Positions 41,799 to 55,653 of a stretch of DNA of 64,000 nucleotides are shown one piece after another. Position numbers and translations under genes: made by a program. Each line of letters opens with the position of its first letter. Positions within the stretch are counted from its first letter, which is position 1. Location: assembly GCF_000374005.1 (NCBI RefSeq), contig NZ_KB893135.1, positions 280,545-344,544 of the forward strand, given 5' to 3'. The stretch comes from Kiloniella laminariae DSM 19542. Lineage in GTDB: Bacteria > Pseudomonadota > Alphaproteobacteria > Kiloniellales > Kiloniellaceae. The notes under the pieces are model-generated. The model made no database searches. It was given only the letters and a program-made list of their open reading frames with translations, and was not told the DNA's origin.

Positions 41799-44111
41799 TT
41801 AATAATTTAACGCTGGGTAAAAAGCAGGATTAAGAATATACTCCAAAGTGTTTCTATTTTTATCTGACAATACTTTTATTAATCGCATGTCATACCCGAC
41901 ATCAAAAATGAATTTTGCAGGATTTGCATCAAACTTTATCCCAATAAATCCATAGTATAGTAAAAACTGTATAATCTTCTCGACTCTATCATTTGGAACA
42001 TCAGCACTACTAATTATGTTTCTCAGGCTCTCTTCCGTAAACGTATTTCCTTCACCAATAAAATAATAAATCAAAGATGTTTCAGCACCAACGATGTCGG
42101 TAAGCTCTTGATCTGCCTCCGTAATCAAATCCAAAGAAAATGCTCTCAGCCCCTTTTCCAAATCATCTTCACTAATCCGTTCATGGCCCAAATTCACAGC
42201 AAAACTGCGACAATGGCCAATTATTTTCAAGAGATTACGTGGTCTCATCAAAGATCGCTCAATTAAATATTGTGAACTTTCCTCTCCTTTATAATGAGAA
42301 ATACAAATTTGGGGCCAAACAAGCTCAAACTCGGTACCCTCAGATAACTGACCTTGAACAAGTCGTCGACGTAGCATTTCTCTCAAGAGATCTGGCTCAG
42401 TCCAATCAAGAACGGCACGGCTCTCTTTACCATAGTCGGCAGAAACCTCGACTAAAAGCTGATATACATCATTTCTAACAAATACGACACAATGGAAATC
42501 GTGGTCATTAGATTGCATTTGCCGTTGAATTTTTCGAGCAGCATCAATCAAGCATCTTAATATTAAAACATCACTAGAAGAGATACCATGCATTGACCAC
42601 CCTTTATCCAAGTTATCAAAAAGAACCCAGACAGATTTTTTAAATTTAAGATAATTAGACAGCACTTCTCGCACATCACGAATATTATGTTTATGGATTA
42701 GCTCTGTCACTTCAGTCGAAGTTAATCTTTGATCAGAATTTTTACTAAATTTTTTCTGGAACTCTGCAGCTAAATCTTGAGACAATGATAAAAGGCGCTC
42801 AGAAAAATCACCTTCTCCGGCATCACCACTCTCATATACTTCCTGCATACGACGATATGGCTCATATAGGTTTTGATCACGAACGTGACGCTCCTTATCC
42901 TTTTCTAATAGCTTATAGCATATTTCAAGATAAAGAATGTACTCAAAGAACGCCGTGATAAGATGCGTTTTGGCTCCTTCAGCAAGGAAATCAAGTACAT
43001 CCTCTTTCAACCGGATAAGCTGATATCCCTCGGGTTTTAAATCAACGACAATATTCTGGATCTGTGCTCTTTTTTCGTCGCGCAGTTGTGAAAAAAGAGC
43101 TGTTTTACCCGCCCCTTTCCGACCAACAACAAGATTAACTTCTCCCCGGGAAGCGCGTCCGAATTGATCAGTCCGTAAAAAATAATTTGCTAGCGTCTGA
43201 AATTCATTCTCAGCAATAGGGTCACCAATAGACAAATTAGATAAAAAATTACCTTTTGGAAGTTTGATTGGCGTTTGAAGTTGAAGTCTTTCAGTCACTT
43301 CCAATGCCAATTCTGTTATATGATCCGCAATCTCATCTCGACTACGAAACGTCTTAACGAAATCTCTAACATCAAGAGGCGCTGGCCCTTCATCTGACTG
43401 TAAAACCAGTGTAACCTTCTCTAAAGATATCCCAAGACCAGCTACGAAAGCTGCACGAATATTATGAATATCATAGTCGGCAAAACTTTCCGATAACAAA
43501 GGAATAACAACCCCTAAAGAATTAGCTACTTCATCAATAGCTTTTGTTGCTGCTAATCGGACTTCTTCTACAGGAATGAAGCTCTTAAATTTTAACCTTG
43601 CCTTCTTTATACTAGCCGTTATGGACAACATAGCTTGGCCAGAGGTAGGCGTTTGCAACAAGTATACAGCAGTATTTTGCTTTGAATTCTTATTAATCAT
43701 TATAGGATTTGAATTATCCAACCTAAGAAGTATATCAGCTAATTCTTCTTGGTCAGAATACTCAACGAAACCCAAGGTATCAAAAATCCCAATTTTATTA
43801 GCCTTTTCAATGCAGCCTTTAAAATTAGCATTTCGAACTAAATATACTCTTTTTCCCAACCCTATAGCGTAACCAATCTCAAAAGTGACATTGAAGTTCA
43901 TCGTCGTAATATCAGCGATTAAGATCTCAGAATTATTAATTGTTTTAAATATTGGGTCGATTAAAGCTCTGCCTGAGATATCGTTTTCAACCCACGTATG
44001 AATGGATAAATCCTTACGTTGCTGGGCCACCAAACTTTGTGCACCGCGAATTGCGCTACCTACCTCATTATGCGTTGAAGCATAGGCAAAAAATGCGTTT
44101 ATTAATGGCAT
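41799..44111 (-). CDS. TIR/NDT-like domains fused to a P-loop ATPase (Sll1717-like)
   Basis: This 770-aa protein has three parts. Residues 1-130 resemble the TIR/nucleoside 2-deoxyribosyltransferase fold: 'NAFFAYASTHNEVG', then 'ADITTMNFNVTFEIGYAIGL' with Glu78 at the NDT catalytic position. Residues 145-280 look like a second, more divergent domain ('RAAFVAGLGISLEKVTLVLQ'). The rest is a P-loop ATPase with Walker A GRKGAGKT (330-337) and Walker B near 498 ('VWVLFDNLDKGW'), as in the Sll1717 family. Such fusions are typical of antiphage or cell-suicide proteins. It is AT-rich and repeat-flanked. ATG 44111 has no clear ribosome site. Confidence 0.78.
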   Translation of the reverse strand: MPLINAFFAYASTHNEVGSAIRGAQSLVAQQRKDLSIHTWVENDISGRALIDPIFKTINNSEILIADITTMNFNVTFEIGYAIGLGKRVYLVRNANFKGCIEKANKIGIFDTLGFVEYSDQEELADILLRLDNSNPIMINKNSKQNTAVYLLQTPTSGQAMLSITASIKKARLKFKSFIPVEEVRLAATKAIDEVANSLGVVIPLLSESFADYDIHNIRAAFVAGLGISLEKVTLVLQSDEGPAPLDVRDFVKTFRSRDEIADHITELALEVTERLQLQTPIKLPKGNFLSNLSIGDPIAENEFQTLANYFLRTDQFGRASRGEVNLVVGRKGAGKTALFSQLRDEKRAQIQNIVVDLKPEGYQLIRLKEDVLDFLAEGAKTHLITAFFEYILYLEICYKLLEKDKERHVRDQNLYEPYRRMQEVYESGDAGEGDFSERLLSLSQDLAAEFQKKFSKNSDQRLTSTEVTELIHKHNIRDVREVLSNYLKFKKSVWVLFDNLDKGWSMHGISSSDVLILRCLIDAARKIQRQMQSNDHDFHCVVFVRNDVYQLLVEVSADYGKESRAVLDWTEPDLLREMLRRRLVQGQLSEGTEFELVWPQICISHYKGEESSQYLIERSLMRPRNLLKIIGHCRSFAVNLGHERISEDDLEKGLRAFSLDLITEADQELTDIVGAETSLIYYFIGEGNTFTEESLRNIISSADVPNDRVEKIIQFLLYYGFIGIKFDANPAKFIFDVGYDMRLIKVLSDKNRNTLEYILNPAFYPALNY

Positions 44112-49589: not shown

Positions 49590-50414
49590 CTATGCGCTCC
49601 ACACCACCGGGAACCAGTCCTCGCGCAGGGTCTGGCCGTCGGTCATGTTGTGGCCGGGGAACGGCGGCGAGGTCGGGCCGGGGCGGGTGACATAGCGCGC
49701 ATCATCGCCGACCAGACGTAGCGACAGGGCTCGGCGGCGGCTGCCGGAAAGGTTGCCACGTGCGCCGTGCAGGGTGCGAAAATCAAAAGCCACCGCATCG
49801 CCCGGGGCCATCGGCCATTCCAGCACCCGGTATTTGTCCGGCTCTGCATCGGGGTCGGGCACGGGCAGGAAGTCTTCCTGATCGGGATAAAAATTGTCCT
49901 CGTTAAGCCAGCGGGTCGGCAGGACCATCTTGTCCCAGCGGTGCGACCCGGCGACCAGCCGCAGCGAGGCCTCGCGCACCGGATCAACCGGAATCCAGAA
50001 ACTCAGGGTCTGGCGTCCCTCGACAAAATAATAGGGCGCGTCCTGATGCCAGGGGGTTGCCTTGGCCGTACCCGGTTCCTTGACCAGCACATGATCGTGG
50101 AACAGCTGCACCCGCTTTGATCCCATCAGACGAGCCGCGGCCTCGGCCATCGGGGATTTTTCAATAATCCGGGCGAGTGCGGGCAGACGGGTCCAGTTGC
50201 AGTAGTCGTCAAAAAACCGCCCCTGCTCGCCTGCTTTCAGATTATCGGCCGCATAGGGACCGGGTTCGCGCATATTCTGGTCAATCGCCGCGATGATATC
50301 ATCGACCCAGCCCTTAAACAGCCCGGGAATGCAGACGGCCCCGTCGCGCTGATAGGCGGCGACGTCTTCGTCCGTGATCATCTCATTAACGGACCCCTGG
50401 TTTTCCCTGTTCAT
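49590..50414 (-). CDS. Phytanoyl-CoA dioxygenase (PhyH)-family protein
   Basis: This 274-aa Fe(II)/2-oxoglutarate oxygenase has the iron ligands H123 and D125 in 'TPWHQDAPYYF', a distal His in 'DFRTLHGARGN', and the oxoglutarate Arg in 'RRALSLRLVGDDARY'. ATG 50414 follows AGGAG by about 12 bases. The substrate is unknown. It lies on the same strand as the DUF1399-like gene upstream, but 225 bases separate them. Confidence 0.88.
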   Translation of the reverse strand: MNRENQGSVNEMITDEDVAAYQRDGAVCIPGLFKGWVDDIIAAIDQNMREPGPYAADNLKAGEQGRFFDDYCNWTRLPALARIIEKSPMAEAAARLMGSKRVQLFHDHVLVKEPGTAKATPWHQDAPYYFVEGRQTLSFWIPVDPVREASLRLVAGSHRWDKMVLPTRWLNEDNFYPDQEDFLPVPDPDAEPDKYRVLEWPMAPGDAVAFDFRTLHGARGNLSGSRRRALSLRLVGDDARYVTRPGPTSPPFPGHNMTDGQTLREDWFPVVWSA

Positions 50415-50639
50415 CAAAGCGCACTCCTGATCTCGCCCCTTAATATCTCCCTGCTTTCAGGTCGAGATAAATCAGGCTATTTTTCTGTGATCTCAGGCTG
50501 TTACGAGAAAAGCCCGCGGTCAACAGAATAATCACTTCTCCCCTATACCAAGAAGCGATCAGTATCAGGCTTTATTATCATTTCCTGCTATTGCTATATC
50601 ACAGAGGCAAAACCGGAAAGGAAAAGGGAAAACCCGCTT

Positions 50640-51119
50640 TCAGGTTCCCTGGGTGATATCGACGCCAAATTCTTCCAGAAACAGCTTCTGGGTATTGCCA
50701 AAGGCGATTTCCAGCTGCCGTCGGTCCTCTGTACTTCGCGAACCAAAGTAGGGGAAATGATGCAGGTAATGCCCGAAGATAACCTGACAGTCCCGGACGT
50801 ATTTCCGGGTATCCAGAATATGATTATGCCAGACCGCATCAATCGCCAGAGTTGGCGAGATATTGGCTTCGTATTTCCGGATCAGGTAGAGATACTGCCG
50901 ATACTGGTTGATCGCAAATTTTGCATCGTCCTCTTCCCAGAGCAGCCCCAGCTCCCCGGCGGATTCCTCATTTGTCATCTTGAAGAAGATCATCGACATA
51001 TCCATTGTAAAGATATAGTCCCGCACCTCCTCAAGCTGTTCGAGGTGCTTGATACTCTCAATCTGCAAAAGCAACCATAGATTGCCAGTCAAATCTTTCT
51101 CGACCCGCGCCAATTCCAT
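50640..51119 (-). CDS. GRDP/DUF1399-like protein
   Basis: This 159-aa protein carries 'IDAVWHNHILDTRKYVRDCQ', the signature of the glycine-rich-domain (GRDP/DUF1399) family, whose function is not established in bacteria. ATG 51119 is preceded by AGGGAG at 8 bases and is preferred over an upstream TTG. It lies downstream of the Cys-peptide gene on the same strand, with 409 bases between. Confidence 0.72.
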   Translation of the reverse strand: MELARVEKDLTGNLWLLLQIESIKHLEQLEEVRDYIFTMDMSMIFFKMTNEESAGELGLLWEEDDAKFAINQYRQYLYLIRKYEANISPTLAIDAVWHNHILDTRKYVRDCQVIFGHYLHHFPYFGSRSTEDRRQLEIAFGNTQKLFLEEFGVDITQGT

Positions 51120-51253
51120 TTCTGTTACTCCCTTTATCTCCGACAAATGACATCACAAAAGGCTGTCCTGCCCTGTCGTACAGCTGATTTCTTTTACCCG
51201 GGCCAAAAACATCAAACCAGAAACATCAAGCCTGAAGACAGGGGCGGAAAGAT

Positions 51254-51406
51254 ATGAACACAAAGATCCGGGAAATCCTGGACAGCCTGCAGAAACACAA
51301 CGGATCACCAGCGCTATATTATTATTCTGATGCGGCTTTCCAGATAAATTTCCAGCCTCCACCCCACAGAATCGCACAAACAAAACAAAGAAATATTACC
51401 TTTTAA
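51254..51406 (+). CDS. Possible 50-aa ORF, maybe a truncated PLP decarboxylase start
   Basis: ATG 51254 opens 50 codons reading 'MNTKIREILDSLQKHNGSPA' and then 'LYYYSDAAFQINF'. The pattern 'xPxYYYxxxAF' recalls the first strand of alanine racemase-fold decarboxylases, after which the frame stops. It is more likely a gene fragment than a working protein. Confidence 0.3.
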   Translation: MNTKIREILDSLQKHNGSPALYYYSDAAFQINFQPPPHRIAQTKQRNITF

Positions 51407-51468
51407 ATCAATCTGATAATAAATATAATCCGCTTTATTCCTTTCAGATCTCCCTTGTAATTGCCTTT

Positions 51469-51497
51469 CCTGCCCAGAACGGAAAGCTCCGGGCAGG
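51469..51497. terminator. Hairpin after the Cys-peptide gene
   Basis: CCTGCCC and GGGCAGG form a 7-bp stem with a 15-base loop, 32 bases beyond the peptide stop. It lacks a T-run on the minus strand, so it may protect the 3' end of the transcript more than end it. Confidence 0.4.
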
Positions 51498-51528
51498 AAG
51501 CGACCAGGGAGTAACTGAATACCGGGCG

Positions 51529-51669
51529 TCAGTTAACGTTCGGCATGCAGAGTTTTCCACAAAAGGCCTTCTTGGTACTTAGCTTGATTTTGAACTGAGT
51601 TGGCTTCCCTGTAGAAGCAATTGATTTTGTGAGTGATTTTTTTGCCTGTTTTGAAGTTAGCTTATTCAT
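51529..51669 (-). CDS. 46-aa Cys-containing peptide, RiPP-precursor-like
   Basis: ATG 51669 is preceded by AGAGGA seven bases away. The peptide has a Lys/Ser-rich N-terminal part ('MNKLTSKQAKKSLTKS'), then 'TGKPTQFKIKLSTKK', and a short C-terminus with two cysteines ('AFCGKLCMPNVN'). No membrane segment. Leader-plus-Cys-core is the pattern of ribosomally made, modified peptides, but no known maturase is adjacent. A DUF1399-like gene and a PhyH oxygenase lie downstream on the same strand; an MFS exporter lies divergent. Upstream are a possible TTGAAA/TATTTG promoter and an inverted repeat. Confidence 0.6.
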   Translation of the reverse strand: MNKLTSKQAKKSLTKSIASTGKPTQFKIKLSTKKAFCGKLCMPNVN

Positions 51670-51694
51670 CAAAATATCCTCTCAATTTGCTATG

Positions 51695-51713
51695 GCGTGA
51701 TGTTGTTTCACGC
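51695..51713. promoter_or_regulatory. Inverted repeat in the leader of the Cys-peptide gene
   Basis: GCGTGA-TGTTGTT-TCACGC is a perfect 6-bp inverted repeat 26 bases upstream of the peptide ATG. It may be an operator or a 5' hairpin. Confidence 0.45.
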
Positions 51714-51830
51714 ACAACCACAAATACATCTGACGAAATAAAATTTCAACAAAAAATAATTATATTTCAATCATAGATAAGCAATACTTACTTATAAACA
51801 GTTAAATATTTCGATCATCAAGCCCGGGAC

Positions 51831-51907
51831 TACCGGGGGATTACCGGGGGATTACCGGGGGAATATCGGGGGAATATCGGAGGAATATCCGGGAAATATT
51901 CGGATAT
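51831..51907. repeat. Seven 11-bp tandem repeats with G5 tracts
   Basis: The unit TACCGGGGGAT is repeated seven times at exact 11-bp steps, decaying rightward to TATTCGGATAT. The first four units each hold a G5 tract, spaced by six bases, so the + strand could form a G-quadruplex. It lies between the divergent Cys-peptide and MFS genes (gap 51670-52123), in which I see no other gene. Confidence 0.88.
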
Positions 51908-52123
51908 CATCTGGCAAAAAATTGTCCCATCAAGATGAACAAGCAGACAGGAATTCTATTTACACTTGTTTAATAAGTCAAAAATGCAATCATAAACAGA
52001 TGACACAATCCGCTGTACCAGGTTCGGGAAAGAGCCAGAAAATAACCAGACAACAGCCAGGGTAATGCCTGTGTCTTACCAGAGTATCACCAGAGTCATT
52101 ATGCAGGTAGAAGGAGAGTATCT

Positions 52124-53332
52124 GTGATCTTTTTTGCCGCTGCGGCCGGGGCCTTTTCACGTGGCGCCTTTGTTGTTGCCGTGGCCTGGACTGCGCTGGT
52201 CTTGACAAACGATAAGGCAATGGTTGGCCGGGTGCTGGTTATCTGGAGCCTGATTGCCCTGTTTATCGGCCCTTTTGTCGGAACAATGATCGAGCGCTGG
52301 AATCGCAAGCGGTCCGTGCTTGCAGGACAGTTCCTGGTTTGTCTGGCCATCACCTTCCCTGCCATACTTCCCCTCTCTGGCTTGGAGCTGACGATTGAAC
52401 ACCTGTTTATCGCCGCCACCGTCTGGTCTCTCGGAGGGCTGTTTGTTGGCGGGCCGTTTGATGCCCTGGTACAGGCGGCCATAGCCGGAGACCAGCGCCG
52501 TAAGGTTGGTGCACAGCTCGGCAGCTTTCGACAGGTCTTTATGGTTACAGGTGTCGGCGCTGCTGGCCTGATCATGCATCACCATGGCCCAGGCCTTGTC
52601 TTCCTGCTCTCTGCGACTGCTGCCATGCTTATGGGGTTGACTGTCTTGTTCGGGATCTCTTCTCCGCCGGAACACAGCCCCGAAACGGATCTGACGGATC
52701 TGACGGATCTGCCTGTGGCAGAGCAAAGTTATCTTTCCGATCTGCGCGAGGGACTGGGATATCTGGCAGGCACCCCTGCACTGGTGATTGCCTCGGCCAC
52801 AAGCGCCCTCGCCTTTGCATCCGGGCAGGTAACAAACACGCTGTTGCCCGCTTACGTCTTTGAAGAAATGCAGTCGGGCAGTGACTTATACGGCTTTGCC
52901 GACGCCGCCTGGGCAATCGGTGCCGTCGGTGCCAGCATGACAATTGCCCTGCTGCTCACGCGCTATCGTTTGCAAAAAACAGATTCCTGGTGCCTGATCC
53001 TGATCGGCGGCACCATGCTGCTGATGTGGTTCAAGATAAATCCCCTGACCCTGATTGTCCTTCAACTGGCCATGGGGGCCACGGCAAGCACGGCAAAAGC
53101 CATTTCAGACGGCGAACTGCTCCAGCACTGCGACGAAAAAAAGATCGGCCGCATCCGCAGTCTTGTACAGGCAATCGCCGGATTAATCGGCATTTTTGTT
53201 CACCTGTCGCCATCGTTCCTGAGCACTTTTTCTACCGCTGAAATCTATCTTTTATGGGGCAGCATCTTTACCGTCACCGGGTTGTTTTTTGCCCTTATGC
53301 CCGCGACCAGACGATCTCAACTGGCAAAGTAA
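52124..53332 (+). CDS. MFS transporter
   Basis: This 402-aa protein has 11-12 hydrophobic segments of the major facilitator superfamily, with the loop motif 'GTMIERWNRKRSVLAG' in place of motif A. It starts with GTG 52124 after AAGGAGAG. The central loop contains 'TDLTDLTDL' from a 9-bp in-frame repeat. It resembles drug or small-molecule exporters (MFS_3). It is divergent from the Cys-peptide gene and could export that peptide or something unrelated. Confidence 0.85.
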   Translation: MIFFAAAAGAFSRGAFVVAVAWTALVLTNDKAMVGRVLVIWSLIALFIGPFVGTMIERWNRKRSVLAGQFLVCLAITFPAILPLSGLELTIEHLFIAATVWSLGGLFVGGPFDALVQAAIAGDQRRKVGAQLGSFRQVFMVTGVGAAGLIMHHHGPGLVFLLSATAAMLMGLTVLFGISSPPEHSPETDLTDLTDLPVAEQSYLSDLREGLGYLAGTPALVIASATSALAFASGQVTNTLLPAYVFEEMQSGSDLYGFADAAWAIGAVGASMTIALLLTRYRLQKTDSWCLILIGGTMLLMWFKINPLTLIVLQLAMGATASTAKAISDGELLQHCDEKKIGRIRSLVQAIAGLIGIFVHLSPSFLSTFSTAEIYLLWGSIFTVTGLFFALMPATRRSQLAK

Positions 53333-53350: not shown

Positions 53351-54142
53351 CTATTGGGTCTGGAGACCTTGATCTGGCAGGGGGAAATCAGTCACGCCGC
53401 TGCGAAGGACGTTGAGATCAACAGTGCCGCTTATGCCCGCCCTTTTACCCCTGTCCTGATACTGCCAGATCACCCACTGGTCTTCGCGAAAATTCGGCTC
53501 CAGCGGCATGCTCGCAATCCAGAAACGATCGTCGAGGAACTTGCCCTTGAGATAACGCTCATCAAAGTGGCGCATGGTATAGATCACGGGACGTTGGCCA
53601 TAGTGCTGGTGCAGCGCCTCGATAAAATCTGTCAGCTCTGCCACCACGTCCGTGACCACATGATCATTTTTCGCGCTGGCTTCCTGCGGCTTGTCACAGG
53701 GTTCCATCACCTCGGCGTCAACAACCGGGGGCAGCATGTCGGCTTCCTGCGGGACTGTGGCGATAAAATTCGCCGCCTGATCCTTGCCGGAATGACAGAG
53801 ATTGAAAAAGTGATAGGCTCCCCGGGGTAAATTGGCCTTGCGGGTTCCCTGCCAGTTCGCTGCGAACTGGGGATCGACATAATCCCCGCCCTCTGTACTT
53901 TTGATATAGACAAAACTGGTGCCTTCCCCGGCCACCTGATGCCAGTCCACCTCTCCCTGATGGTGCGAGACATCAATACCATGCACCGGGTGAAACTGCC
54001 GGGCCAGTTCAAGATGCGGGGCAAAGAACCAGCCCGTCAGACCAAGTCCCGTCACGGCAACCAGAAACAGGGACAGCCCTCTGACAAGTCTTCGGCCAAG
54101 TTTGTATAAAGGGGGCTTGTGTAAAAGGGGGGAACGTTTCAT
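53351..54142 (-). CDS. Membrane-anchored GH25 lysozyme
   Basis: This 263-aa protein has an N-terminal membrane helix (about residues 20-42) and a GH25 muramidase domain: 'HGIDVSHHQGEVDW', 'FVYIKSTEGGDYVD', the acid pair in 'PPVVDAEV', and 'WVIWQYQDRG' near the end. It should cleave peptidoglycan in the periplasm. ATG 54142 follows GGAG and is chosen over GTG 54166. Confidence 0.9.
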   Translation of the reverse strand: MKRSPLLHKPPLYKLGRRLVRGLSLFLVAVTGLGLTGWFFAPHLELARQFHPVHGIDVSHHQGEVDWHQVAGEGTSFVYIKSTEGGDYVDPQFAANWQGTRKANLPRGAYHFFNLCHSGKDQAANFIATVPQEADMLPPVVDAEVMEPCDKPQEASAKNDHVVTDVVAELTDFIEALHQHYGQRPVIYTMRHFDERYLKGKFLDDRFWIASMPLEPNFREDQWVIWQYQDRGKRAGISGTVDLNVLRSGVTDFPLPDQGLQTQ

Positions 54143-54265
54143 CCGGGTGTTTCTCCGCTGTGACACCCGTCATTGTACTCCCCTGGGGCGCCAGCGGGAA
54201 TAAAATATTCCTCGTCGGCGGAAGATTCGGAAAATCCAGCCCCGCCCCGCCCTGCAAATCAAAGT

Positions 54266-54811
54266 TCAGTCGATAAAACGGGGAGTTCCGGTTCCCAGGT
54301 CAATCAGATGACGTTCTTGGACAAAGATCAGCTTGAGCTTTTCGTTTTCCGGGCGATCCCGCCATTCCTCGCGTTCGATCTCGTTGCTTTGATAGATAAT
54401 AATCGGATTGGGGCCATAATCGTTGATCAGAGGGAAGCCAATCGATTCGACCGTAATGCTCCGGCCAGAAGACAGGGCGTGATCAAGAATGGCAATGATA
54501 CCACAGGGCTGTTCAGCCATCAGCCAGAAAGCCGAAGCCGCCTTCTCGCGGCGGTCGGGTTCGACATAGTCCAGATAGTTGCCCCCGGTCATATCCTGAC
54601 CAAAACGCTGATTGATCGCTGTTCCCTGCAGGCGGATCATGATCTGGTCTTTGTCCAGCAACTCATAGATGATGATATTGGGCAGTATTGAGGGAATATC
54701 TTCGGGCAGAAAAATGCTTTTCCGCGGCAGAAGTTCTCCTTCTGCCCTTGGTAAATTACGCCAGTAATCATAAAAAAGCTGGTTTCGCGGGTTTCTGATC
54801 TCGAACAACAC
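54266..54811 (-). CDS. PAS_5-type single-domain protein (YWQxLPR subgroup)
   Basis: This 181-aa protein is closest to the neighbouring 55111 gene. It has 'NQLFYDYWRNLPR', 'YELLDKDQIMIRLQGTAI', 'GGNYLDYVEPDRREKAA', 'PCGIIA', 'TVESIGFPLINDYGPNPII' and the C-terminal 'LIDLGTGTPRFID'. The start is GTG 54811 after GGGAAGGGGG. The pair shares an 'AEGELLPRKS'-type insert before the LPR-distal strand not seen in the 19-23 kb group. Confidence 0.82.
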   Translation of the reverse strand: MLFEIRNPRNQLFYDYWRNLPRAEGELLPRKSIFLPEDIPSILPNIIIYELLDKDQIMIRLQGTAINQRFGQDMTGGNYLDYVEPDRREKAASAFWLMAEQPCGIIAILDHALSSGRSITVESIGFPLINDYGPNPIIIYQSNEIEREEWRDRPENEKLKLIFVQERHLIDLGTGTPRFID

Positions 54812-55041: not shown

Positions 55042-55114
55042 CTAGTCGTTCGTTTCCAACATTTGCATCCCGCATCGGCAAGTTCAGGGGCAAATGTCAA
55101 ATTCGCTCCCCTAG
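55042..55114 (-). repeat. 73-bp CTAG-bounded palindromic repeat, copy B
   Basis: It is about 90% identical to copy A (492-564) in reverse orientation and the same length, with CTAG at both ends and the ACATTTGC/GCAAATGT inner pairing kept. The CTAG at 55111-55114 contains the TAG stop of the PAS gene, in the same relation as copy A to its gene. The rest of the gap 54812-55110 holds no gene. Confidence 0.8.
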
Positions 55115-55653
55115 TCAACAAACACTGGCGCACCGTTCCCGATGTCAATGATCTGCCGGCTCAGGACATAGATCCACTTGAGCTTGCCGTCATCGTCGTG
55201 GTCCTCGCGTTTGCTCTTTTTTATCTCGTTACTCTGATAGATGATAATCGGGTTTTTGCCTGTGTCATTAATCAGCGGAAAACCGATTGCCTCGACAGTC
55301 ACATAACGCCCGGATGACAGCGCCTGATCGAGTTCGGCCACAATACCAAAAGGATGTTCCGCCATTTGCCAGAAGGCCGAAGCCGCCACATCGCGACGGT
55401 GCGGTTCAACATAATCAAGATAATTTCCACCGGTCATGCTTTGGCCGTACTGTTCGTCAATCGCGGTTCCCTGGAGCCTGATTTTTATCTCCTGCCGGGA
55501 AATGACCTCGAAGACCAACATGTTCGGTAAAAGCTGGGGAACCTCTTCTGGCAGAAAGCTGCTCTTGCGCGGCACCAGACAGCCCTCATCCCGCGGTAAA
55601 CTTTGCCAGTAATCAAAAAACCGTCGGTTTTTTGGATCCTTGATCTCAACCAA
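55111..55653 (-). CDS. PAS_5-type single-domain protein (YWQxLPR subgroup)
   Basis: This 180-aa tandem paralogue of the 54266 gene has 'NRRFFDYWQSLPRDEGCLVP', 'FEVISRQEIKIRLQGTAI', 'GGNYLDYVEPHRRD', 'TVEAIGFPLINDTGKNPII' and the C-terminal 'IIDIGNGAPVFVD'. TTG 55653 follows GGAGG. Its stop lies in the 73-bp repeat, yet the protein end is complete compared with paralogues. Confidence 0.82.
   Translation of the reverse strand: MVEIKDPKNRRFFDYWQSLPRDEGCLVPRKSSFLPEEVPQLLPNMLVFEVISRQEIKIRLQGTAIDEQYGQSMTGGNYLDYVEPHRRDVAASAFWQMAEHPFGIVAELDQALSSGRYVTVEAIGFPLINDTGKNPIIIYQSNEIKKSKREDHDDDGKLKWIYVLSRQIIDIGNGAPVFVD

Follow-up and report, generated by a model that had tools for sequence, protein, structure and literature searches.

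A 46-residue cysteine-containing peptide encoded by Kiloniella laminariae DSM 19542 is the product of a genuine gene whose protein sequence is under purifying selection, and this gene is paired with a gene for a GRDP-like protein at all six loci where we find it. Judged from their sequences, the peptide and its partner resemble a hitherto undescribed route to modified peptides. We lean, if only modestly, toward the view that the pair comprises a RiPP-like precursor, which would supply a cysteine core in trans, and a GRDP-like maturase that would act on the core cysteines. Both genes lie in the window, by which we mean the whole 64,000-nucleotide stretch of DNA analyzed here (Table 1). The peptide ORF runs on the minus strand from an ATG at 51669 to a stop codon at 51529-51531 and encodes MNKLTSKQAKKSLTKSIASTGKPTQFKIKLSTKKAFCGKLCMPNVN; its coordinates and the GAGAGG sequence ahead of it bear out the original prediction of a 46-residue reading frame with a good ribosome site.

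Table 1. Features of the peptide locus and its surroundings in the window.
Feature	Positions	Strand	Remark
PhyH-type oxygenase gene	49590..50417	minus	neighbor; judged outside the system
GRDP-like (PF07173, DUF1399-like) protein gene, 159 aa, ATG at 51119	50640..51119	minus	proposed maturase or dedicated partner
Predicted RNA hairpin in the peptide-GRDP spacer	51463..51501	minus	RNA folding prediction
46-aa peptide gene	51529..51669	minus	proposed precursor (leader and Cys core); homology, silent-change bias
Core motif KAFCGKLC	51547..51570	minus	identical in 6/6 loci; silent codons differ
Leader motif QFKIKL	51580..51597	minus	Q-F-K-[IM]-[KT]-L in 6/6 loci
Shine-Dalgarno-like GAGAGG	51678..51683	minus	8 nt 5′ of the peptide ATG
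Inverted repeat GCGTGA/TCACGC	51695..51713		6-bp arms; weakly conserved
Promoter-like site TTTATA-17-TATGAT	51770..51798	minus	putative; in a stretch conserved in Kiloniella
MFS transporter gene	52124..53332	plus, divergent	neighbor; possible exporter

Homologs with the KAFCGKLC motif occur at six loci in four genera (two in Kiloniella, two in Marinomonas, and one each in genomes G355 and G266). The peptide of K. laminariae G21630-S1 matches that of the window in 45 of 46 residues, T5S being the sole replacement. Both Marinomonas strains, which are Gammaproteobacteria, encode MNKVNASLAKKAFFQTAQKGDKKTQFKMKLESDKKAFCGKLCLHTPK 5′ of a GRDP-like gene, and the peptides of G355 (MNKVTSTLAKKSLSQPSADAKKTTQFKIKLSHGKAFCGKLCMPLRN) and G266 (MNKVTSDIARKTLGTANKTGEKPVQFKMTLKSGKAFCGKLCMPMRS), from two alphaproteobacterial genera of one family, occupy the same place. 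The six precursors are 46-47 residues long, with a variable front that contains the QFK motif and an invariant KAFCGKLC, a run that belongs to the 18 invariant columns of the alignment. Silent and replacement changes number 5 and 1 in the Kiloniella pair and 10 and 0 in the Marinomonas pair; under neutrality, at least 15 silent changes out of 16 would arise with P ≈ 4e-10. Conservation in relatives had been named beforehand as a test of the peptide, and its recovery in four genera with a 15:1 silent bias, together with the leader-like part and the two-cysteine C-terminus common to the six loci, supports the claim of an overlooked cysteine peptide gene. The peptide has no match in Pfam, NCBIfam, PHROGs, or PADLOC (with the Marinomonas peptide as query, one NCBIfam match at E 0.053 falls far short of its cut-off), nor does any plasmid of the collection searched match it at E ≤ 10; searched against its own genome, it returns a single match. 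A structural model of the peptide is of low confidence (pLDDT 70, pTM 0.32) and was left unused.

The DNA upstream of the peptide gene is clearly alike within Kiloniella only and is unrelated in the other lineages. Across lineages, the conserved object is therefore the peptide, and it is on the peptide that selection acts. A control region had also been predicted, and one part of it stands: about 125 bp 5′ of the peptide ATG are conserved between both Kiloniella genomes far above the remaining intergenic DNA. The other parts fare worse. The GCGTGA/TCACGC repeat is one of eight inverted repeats within 191 bp, and one of its pairs has turned into G-T in K. laminariae G21630-S1. Promoter-like sites occur at chance level in the 1651 bp scanned (4 found, 3.4 expected), and the site at 51798-51770 falls outside the range of the original prediction, 51529-51713. 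On the other side of the gene, a hairpin is predicted in the spacer between peptide and GRDP-like gene at all six loci, with sequences unrelated between genera; its folding energy clearly beats that of shuffled sequences in three of the six (the window, Marinomonas SBI8L, and G266). For both Kiloniella, the folded segment was the 93 nt directly following the peptide. We set aside a reading of the region as a regulatory RNA, given that positions 50600-52200 have no Rfam match and that the upstream DNA is unconserved outside Kiloniella. That the ORF itself is an accidental or regulatory leader frame is by now nearly refuted: its shortness, the lack of a family match, the conserved upstream DNA of Kiloniella, and the predicted downstream hairpin would all suit such a frame, but the amino acids are conserved across four genera with nearly saturated silent sites, and the DNA upstream is unrelated between genera. 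The interval between the peptide and MFS genes also holds short GC-rich repeats on the minus strand (51826-51890, units like CCCCCGGTAAT and CCCCCGATATT) that are largely absent from K. laminariae G21630-S1.

The pairing of the peptide with the GRDP-like gene is consistent in both arrangement and distribution. The distance from the peptide stop codon to the GRDP-like start, taken as a chosen ATG, is 102-424 bp, and the two genes share a strand at all six loci; no other gene is recognized at all of them. When one genome per species was scanned with the GRDP proteins of both Kiloniella, two Marinomonas strains proved to have a GRDP-like protein of 72% identity. Among 385 alphaproteobacterial genomes, 25 have GRDP matches and three have the peptide, with the genes adjacent in each, and these three are exactly the genomes whose GRDP match has E below 1e-50 (with a ranking profile that included Kiloniella and Marinomonas proteins). 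The hypergeometric chance of drawing the same three genomes from 385 is 1e-7, or 2e-4 when set against all 25 GRDP genomes. The link to DUF1399 drawn in the original prediction is supported by the pairing at six loci and by co-occurrence across 385 genomes. The peptide is found in one of 48 Marinomonas genomes and in one of eight other Kiloniella genomes, with one further match at E 0.5, and in the order of Marinomonas a single genome of 390 gives a convincing score. Two additional matches in that order (loci L148 and L149) are at chance level for 390 genomes (E ~0.005-0.007) and have no GRDP domain within ~3 kb. In L148, the frame at 1495-1713 reads TAQFNLKWRSGHAFCGSC (QFN-LKW-SGHAFCGSC), whose likeness to the peptide is not distinguishable from coincidence. 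Phylogenetically, the GRDP proteins of the six peptide loci form one supported group (97/94), within which the alphaproteobacterial G266 protein groups with those of Marinomonas (97/81), a placement that suggests horizontal transfer.

Patchy spread of this kind (one of 48 Marinomonas, one of eight other Kiloniella), GRDP homologs on plasmids, and a small basic peptide with a linked gene might also point to a toxin-antitoxin or bacteriocin-immunity pair, in which a toxic lysine-rich peptide would be neutralized by the GRDP-like protein. We regard this as improbable: tandem cysteine repeats fused to GRDP, described below, would have no place in such a system, the peptide has no NCBIfam match, and no PADLOC model matches the peptide, the GRDP-like protein, or the MFS protein at E ≤ 1.

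The GRDP-like protein of the window matches PF07173 with 23.4 bits against a cut-off of 22.7, over profile positions 97-143 in the C-terminal part. Its conserved residues are D94, W97-H98-x-H100, Y107, D110-C111, and H120-H121. In 12 diverse relatives, D94, W97, H98, H100, Y107, and D110 are common to all and C111 to 11; a second set of 12 shows no variation at C111, H120, or H121 and very little at D110. An AlphaFold2 model is all-helical (pLDDT 81.9, pTM 0.82). On the basis of its sequence, the GRDP-like protein is probably a maturase that uses a metal. Several observations weigh against this assignment, however. The Halomonas protein has a threonine at the position of C111 and nevertheless has a peptide partner, the model finds no Foldseek match among solved structures at E ≤ 0.001, and we know of no GRDP-like protein that has been established as an enzyme. 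The best VIA comparison reaches a Z of 2.1 with an rmsd of 4.7 over 94 residues, and this lack of a usable structural match does not speak for a new fold; a PDB sequence search with the domain returns no relative (best matches at E 0.5 or worse), and none is present in PHROGs, PADLOC, or NCBIfam. To our knowledge, no biochemical role has been established for the PF07173/DUF1399 domain, which ranges from phages to plants. A small protein, modeled as all-alpha and lacking a recognized catalytic fold, could instead serve solely as a leader-binding carrier or partner, in an RRE-like role, with unlinked enzymes modifying the peptide, and the variation of the other genes from locus to locus would agree with this. 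We consider such a carrier role rather unlikely, since GRDP is alone in being recognized at six of six loci and since the conservation of D94, W97, H98, H100, Y107, and C111 looks like that of an active or metal site.

Cysteine segments also occur on GRDP proteins themselves. We surveyed a mixed sample of proteins from plasmids, phages, and genomes, pooled from several searches, which comprised 86 distinct GRDP entries, 43 of them strong (E below 1e-20); two of the strong matches ran off the end of the available sequence and were dropped. The C-terminal tail contains cysteine in 27 of the 41 closed strong matches and lacks it in 14. Cysteine makes up 6.6% of tail residues versus 1.3% of domain residues; in 95 control genes drawn from 18 GRDP neighborhoods, it accounts for 1.6% of the 40 C-terminal residues. 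Tandem one-cysteine repeats are present in five of the 27 cysteine tails. They include nine AYCAGPH-type units with a 23-residue period (one unit reading AYCASPH), AYCAR repeats in two Cupriavidus proteins, AWCSL repeats in Variovorax, and an AMCGGML type. Eight AFCAGPH units belong to a protein that was cut in the survey and is whole in another locus, and two weaker matches have five ALCVPS units and CGGML repeats, respectively. The nine AYCAGPH-type units, which are near-identical, and the eight AFCAGPH units are encoded by two neighboring GRDP genes of L118 (5272-7638). Most of the tails that are neither repeats nor Gly/Cys-rich are short cysteine ends such as TPAMCIS, TSAICSR, KPQKCR, and GACK. 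In tails that are not glycine-rich, alanine stands two residues before the cysteine in 60 of 200 cases (background 0.114), as it does in KAFC, the repeats being non-independent. A hydrophobic residue directly precedes the cysteine in 59 of 200 against a background of 0.235, a slight excess that counts against the maturase reading.

Another five of the 27 cysteine tails, these of phage type, and many weaker matches are Gly/Cys-rich, which likewise speaks against a maturase and may mean metal binding. Phage or viral contigs of 80 to 595 kb (L070-L074, L106, and L041) encode GRDP proteins with Cys/His/Gly-rich tails. A metal-binding role of the cysteine segment is the main rival to our interpretation: the cysteines would be metal ligands, the peptide would stay unaltered, and peptide and GRDP together would form a metallochaperone, a metal store, or a redox subunit. 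Tails such as HSCGGHGCGGGGCGG, the histidines near the cysteine in AYCAGPH, GGHCQGGGW, and RCWHDC, and the conserved His, Asp, and Cys of the domain all suit this role. The segments AWCSLEA, ALCVPSKE, and AYCARMA suit it poorly, each with one cysteine and no other obvious ligand, and neighboring SET, methyltransferase, and TauD genes suggest tailoring instead. Overall, we give metal binding perhaps one chance in a handful.

Where the tail lacks cysteine, a separate small cysteine ORF often lies beside the gene. Under a rule with fixed limits that required a ribosome site, such an ORF adjoins 10 of the 14 GRDP genes without a cysteine tail, compared with 14 of the 87 controls (p 6e-5); when gene starts are defined alike for GRDP and control genes, the count is nine of 14 (p 4e-4). 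The excess persists without the six KAFCGKLC loci (6/8, p 9e-4) and with the Pseudomonas pair collapsed as well (5/7, p 0.003). The rule misses both Kiloniella loci, whose spacer exceeds 350 bp, along with Stanieria and L055. Two of the peptides, ...GGGHCQGGGSW in Halomonas and ...GGGGHCQGGGGW in Pseudomonas savastanoi, are annotated genes in public records and lie 5′ of GRDP. Eight Pseudomonas plasmid records match GRDP, and precisely these eight also match a GGGGHCQGGGGW-type peptide (97-100% identity over 15 to 32 residues, E 0.05-0.4 with the glycine-rich end filtered), although these plasmids are near-identical and hence not independent. Cysteine ORFs also lie just 5′ of GRDP in Maritalea, in Piscirickettsia, and on an Aureibacter plasmid (Bacteroidota), the last being outside the counted set. 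That plasmid (L146) encodes, at 2103-2204, a 33-residue ORF ending in GHCSNCGHCSASF directly before a distant GRDP gene. It is one of six further plasmid loci, of which four have cysteine in the tail and one, from Deinococcus, has a glycine-rich tail with a single cysteine.

Cysteine segments are therefore distributed around GRDP both in cis and in trans. In the tree, 12 of the 13 proteins with a separate peptide fall in one weakly supported group of 14 (90/73), with Stanieria outside it and one member that has a cysteine tail, so the cores may have switched between the cis and the trans arrangement. Separate cysteine peptides in some loci and fused cysteine repeats in others are most simply explained by a domain whose action is directed at a cysteine segment or exerted together with it.

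Genes that accompany GRDP relatives include kinds that occur in peptide-tailoring clusters, namely TauD, methyltransferase, SET, and transporter genes. A TauD dioxygenase and a methyltransferase occur with GRDP in Azospirillum and in G479, and a methyltransferase lies near it in Stanieria. A SET protein is encoded beside GRDP in G253 and a SET domain is fused to it in G014, in both cases with CGGML-type repeats. As for transport, an ABC transporter gene adjoins GRDP in G290 (with an HTTM gene at 2 kb), GRDP lies just 5′ of an ABC ATPase gene in Piscirickettsia, and the adjacent gene in Halomonas has a MatE match below the cut-off. The adjacent genes in Pseudomonas and Maritalea have no Pfam match and resemble membrane transporters by eye.

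The neighbors in the window itself are less constant. The MFS protein is a possible exporter of the peptide. Among seven other Kiloniella genomes, its gene is present in K. laminariae G21630-S1 only, where its presence is not separable from shared ancestry because the surrounding genes are shared too. G266 has an MFS gene of its own directly after GRDP, with no significant BLASTP similarity to that of the window. By eye, we recognized no protease or exporter adjoining the Marinomonas and G355 pairs, which argues against a maturase. We rejected the PhyH-type oxygenase as a part of the system: it is unlinked to the peptide in relatives, and in K. laminariae G21630-S1 a flavin amine oxidase gene intervenes between GRDP and PhyH. 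PhyH homologs occur in Kiloniella G003 and G008, both without a convincing peptide match; those of G355 lie ~2.2 Mb (68% identity) and 0.7 Mb (38%) from the peptide; and a search found none in G266 or Marinomonas MED121. The originally proposed membership of PhyH is not upheld by this distribution. Beyond the MFS gene, the window encodes a GH25-type lysozyme-like protein (53351-54166, minus strand), whose N-terminus looks by eye like a membrane segment and whose gene adjoins MFS in K. laminariae G21630-S1 too, and two adjacent PAS_5-domain paralogs of ~180 residues (54266-54811 and 55111-55653, minus strand), both kept in that strain. Positions 42001-44000 have a G+C content of 38%, compared with 47-62% in the other 2-kb steps, and are possibly a foreign segment.

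We propose the following mechanism for a precursor-maturase pair. The peptide would serve as a ribosomally made, RiPP-like precursor. A leader comprising its first ~33 residues (MNK..., A-(K/R)-K, K-x-(T/V)-QFK-(I/M)-(K/T)-L) would be recognized by the GRDP-like protein, and KAFCGKLC with the variable end would be the core. The GRDP-like protein would be a small all-alpha maturase that probably uses a metal bound through D-x2-W-H-x-H ... Y-x2-D-C ... HH and that would work on the core cysteine or cysteines. In relatives, the same domain would bear the cores itself, in cis, in the form of a single one-cysteine segment or a series of them at its C-terminus. The intergenic hairpin may keep the peptide transcript above that of the enzyme, and export of the product, like its end use, is part of what we infer. 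The leader-like conservation, the invariant core, the order of peptide, hairpin, and partner, and the tailoring and export neighbors make a precursor-maturase relationship the most likely mechanism. Many RiPPs conserve the leader most strongly; in this peptide family the core is better conserved than the leader, which counts against a RiPP maturase.

Several known systems offer points of comparison. The window protein has its Pfam domain in common with plant GRDP/DUF1399 (PF07173) and bacterial TIGR04222-type proteins. Many bacterial members have Cys/Gly-rich C-terminal tails, and one weak relative carries a TIGR04222 membrane protein annotation. Unlike plant GRDP, the window protein is short, tail-less, and paired with a separate cysteine peptide. 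In BURP-domain burpitides and in borosins, a modifying domain and repeated cores share one polypeptide, and split versions exist; the GRDP domain differs in being unrelated and bacterial, with cysteine-centered cores and a proposed modification. The MNIO systems (methanobactins, bufferins, and thiooxazole metallophores) combine a short cysteine precursor with partner genes and have cysteine as their target. MNIO is a TIM barrel, whereas GRDP is modeled as all-alpha, and no MNIO/DUF692 match is present among the 13 window proteins scanned at this locus (45.4-56.9 kb). Plant GRDP proteins are described as growth and stress proteins (PMC4299439). Within the portion of the open-access literature covered, nothing connects GRDP/DUF1399 to peptide biosynthesis, and the DUF1399 titles are mostly on plants, with none on bacterial GRDP.

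The wider GRDP survey is compatible with the original suggestion that the peptide may be modified and belong to a new class. More tentatively, and with a confidence that falls a little short of even, we suggest that GRDP-like (DUF1399) domains are a widespread, so far unrecognized family of peptide-modifying enzymes of bacteria and phages that act on cysteine-centered cores. These cores would come as separate precursors of the KAFCGKLC and GGHCQGGGW types or, in tandem, as repeats on the enzyme itself. Such enzymes would possibly be ancestral to plant GRDP with its glycine-rich tails, and the two-gene pair would be their minimal form. An overlooked 46-residue ORF becomes a testable two-gene system, and the PF07173/DUF1399 domain gains a concrete hypothesis for its role from phages to plants. 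The naturally occurring cis and trans forms, in which as many as nine near-identical cores are present, provide a built-in substrate panel. If the GRDP-like protein is indeed a maturase, the pair would represent a new class of peptide modification with very small parts that are easily reconstituted in E. coli, and its relatives would be self-modifying repeat arrays.
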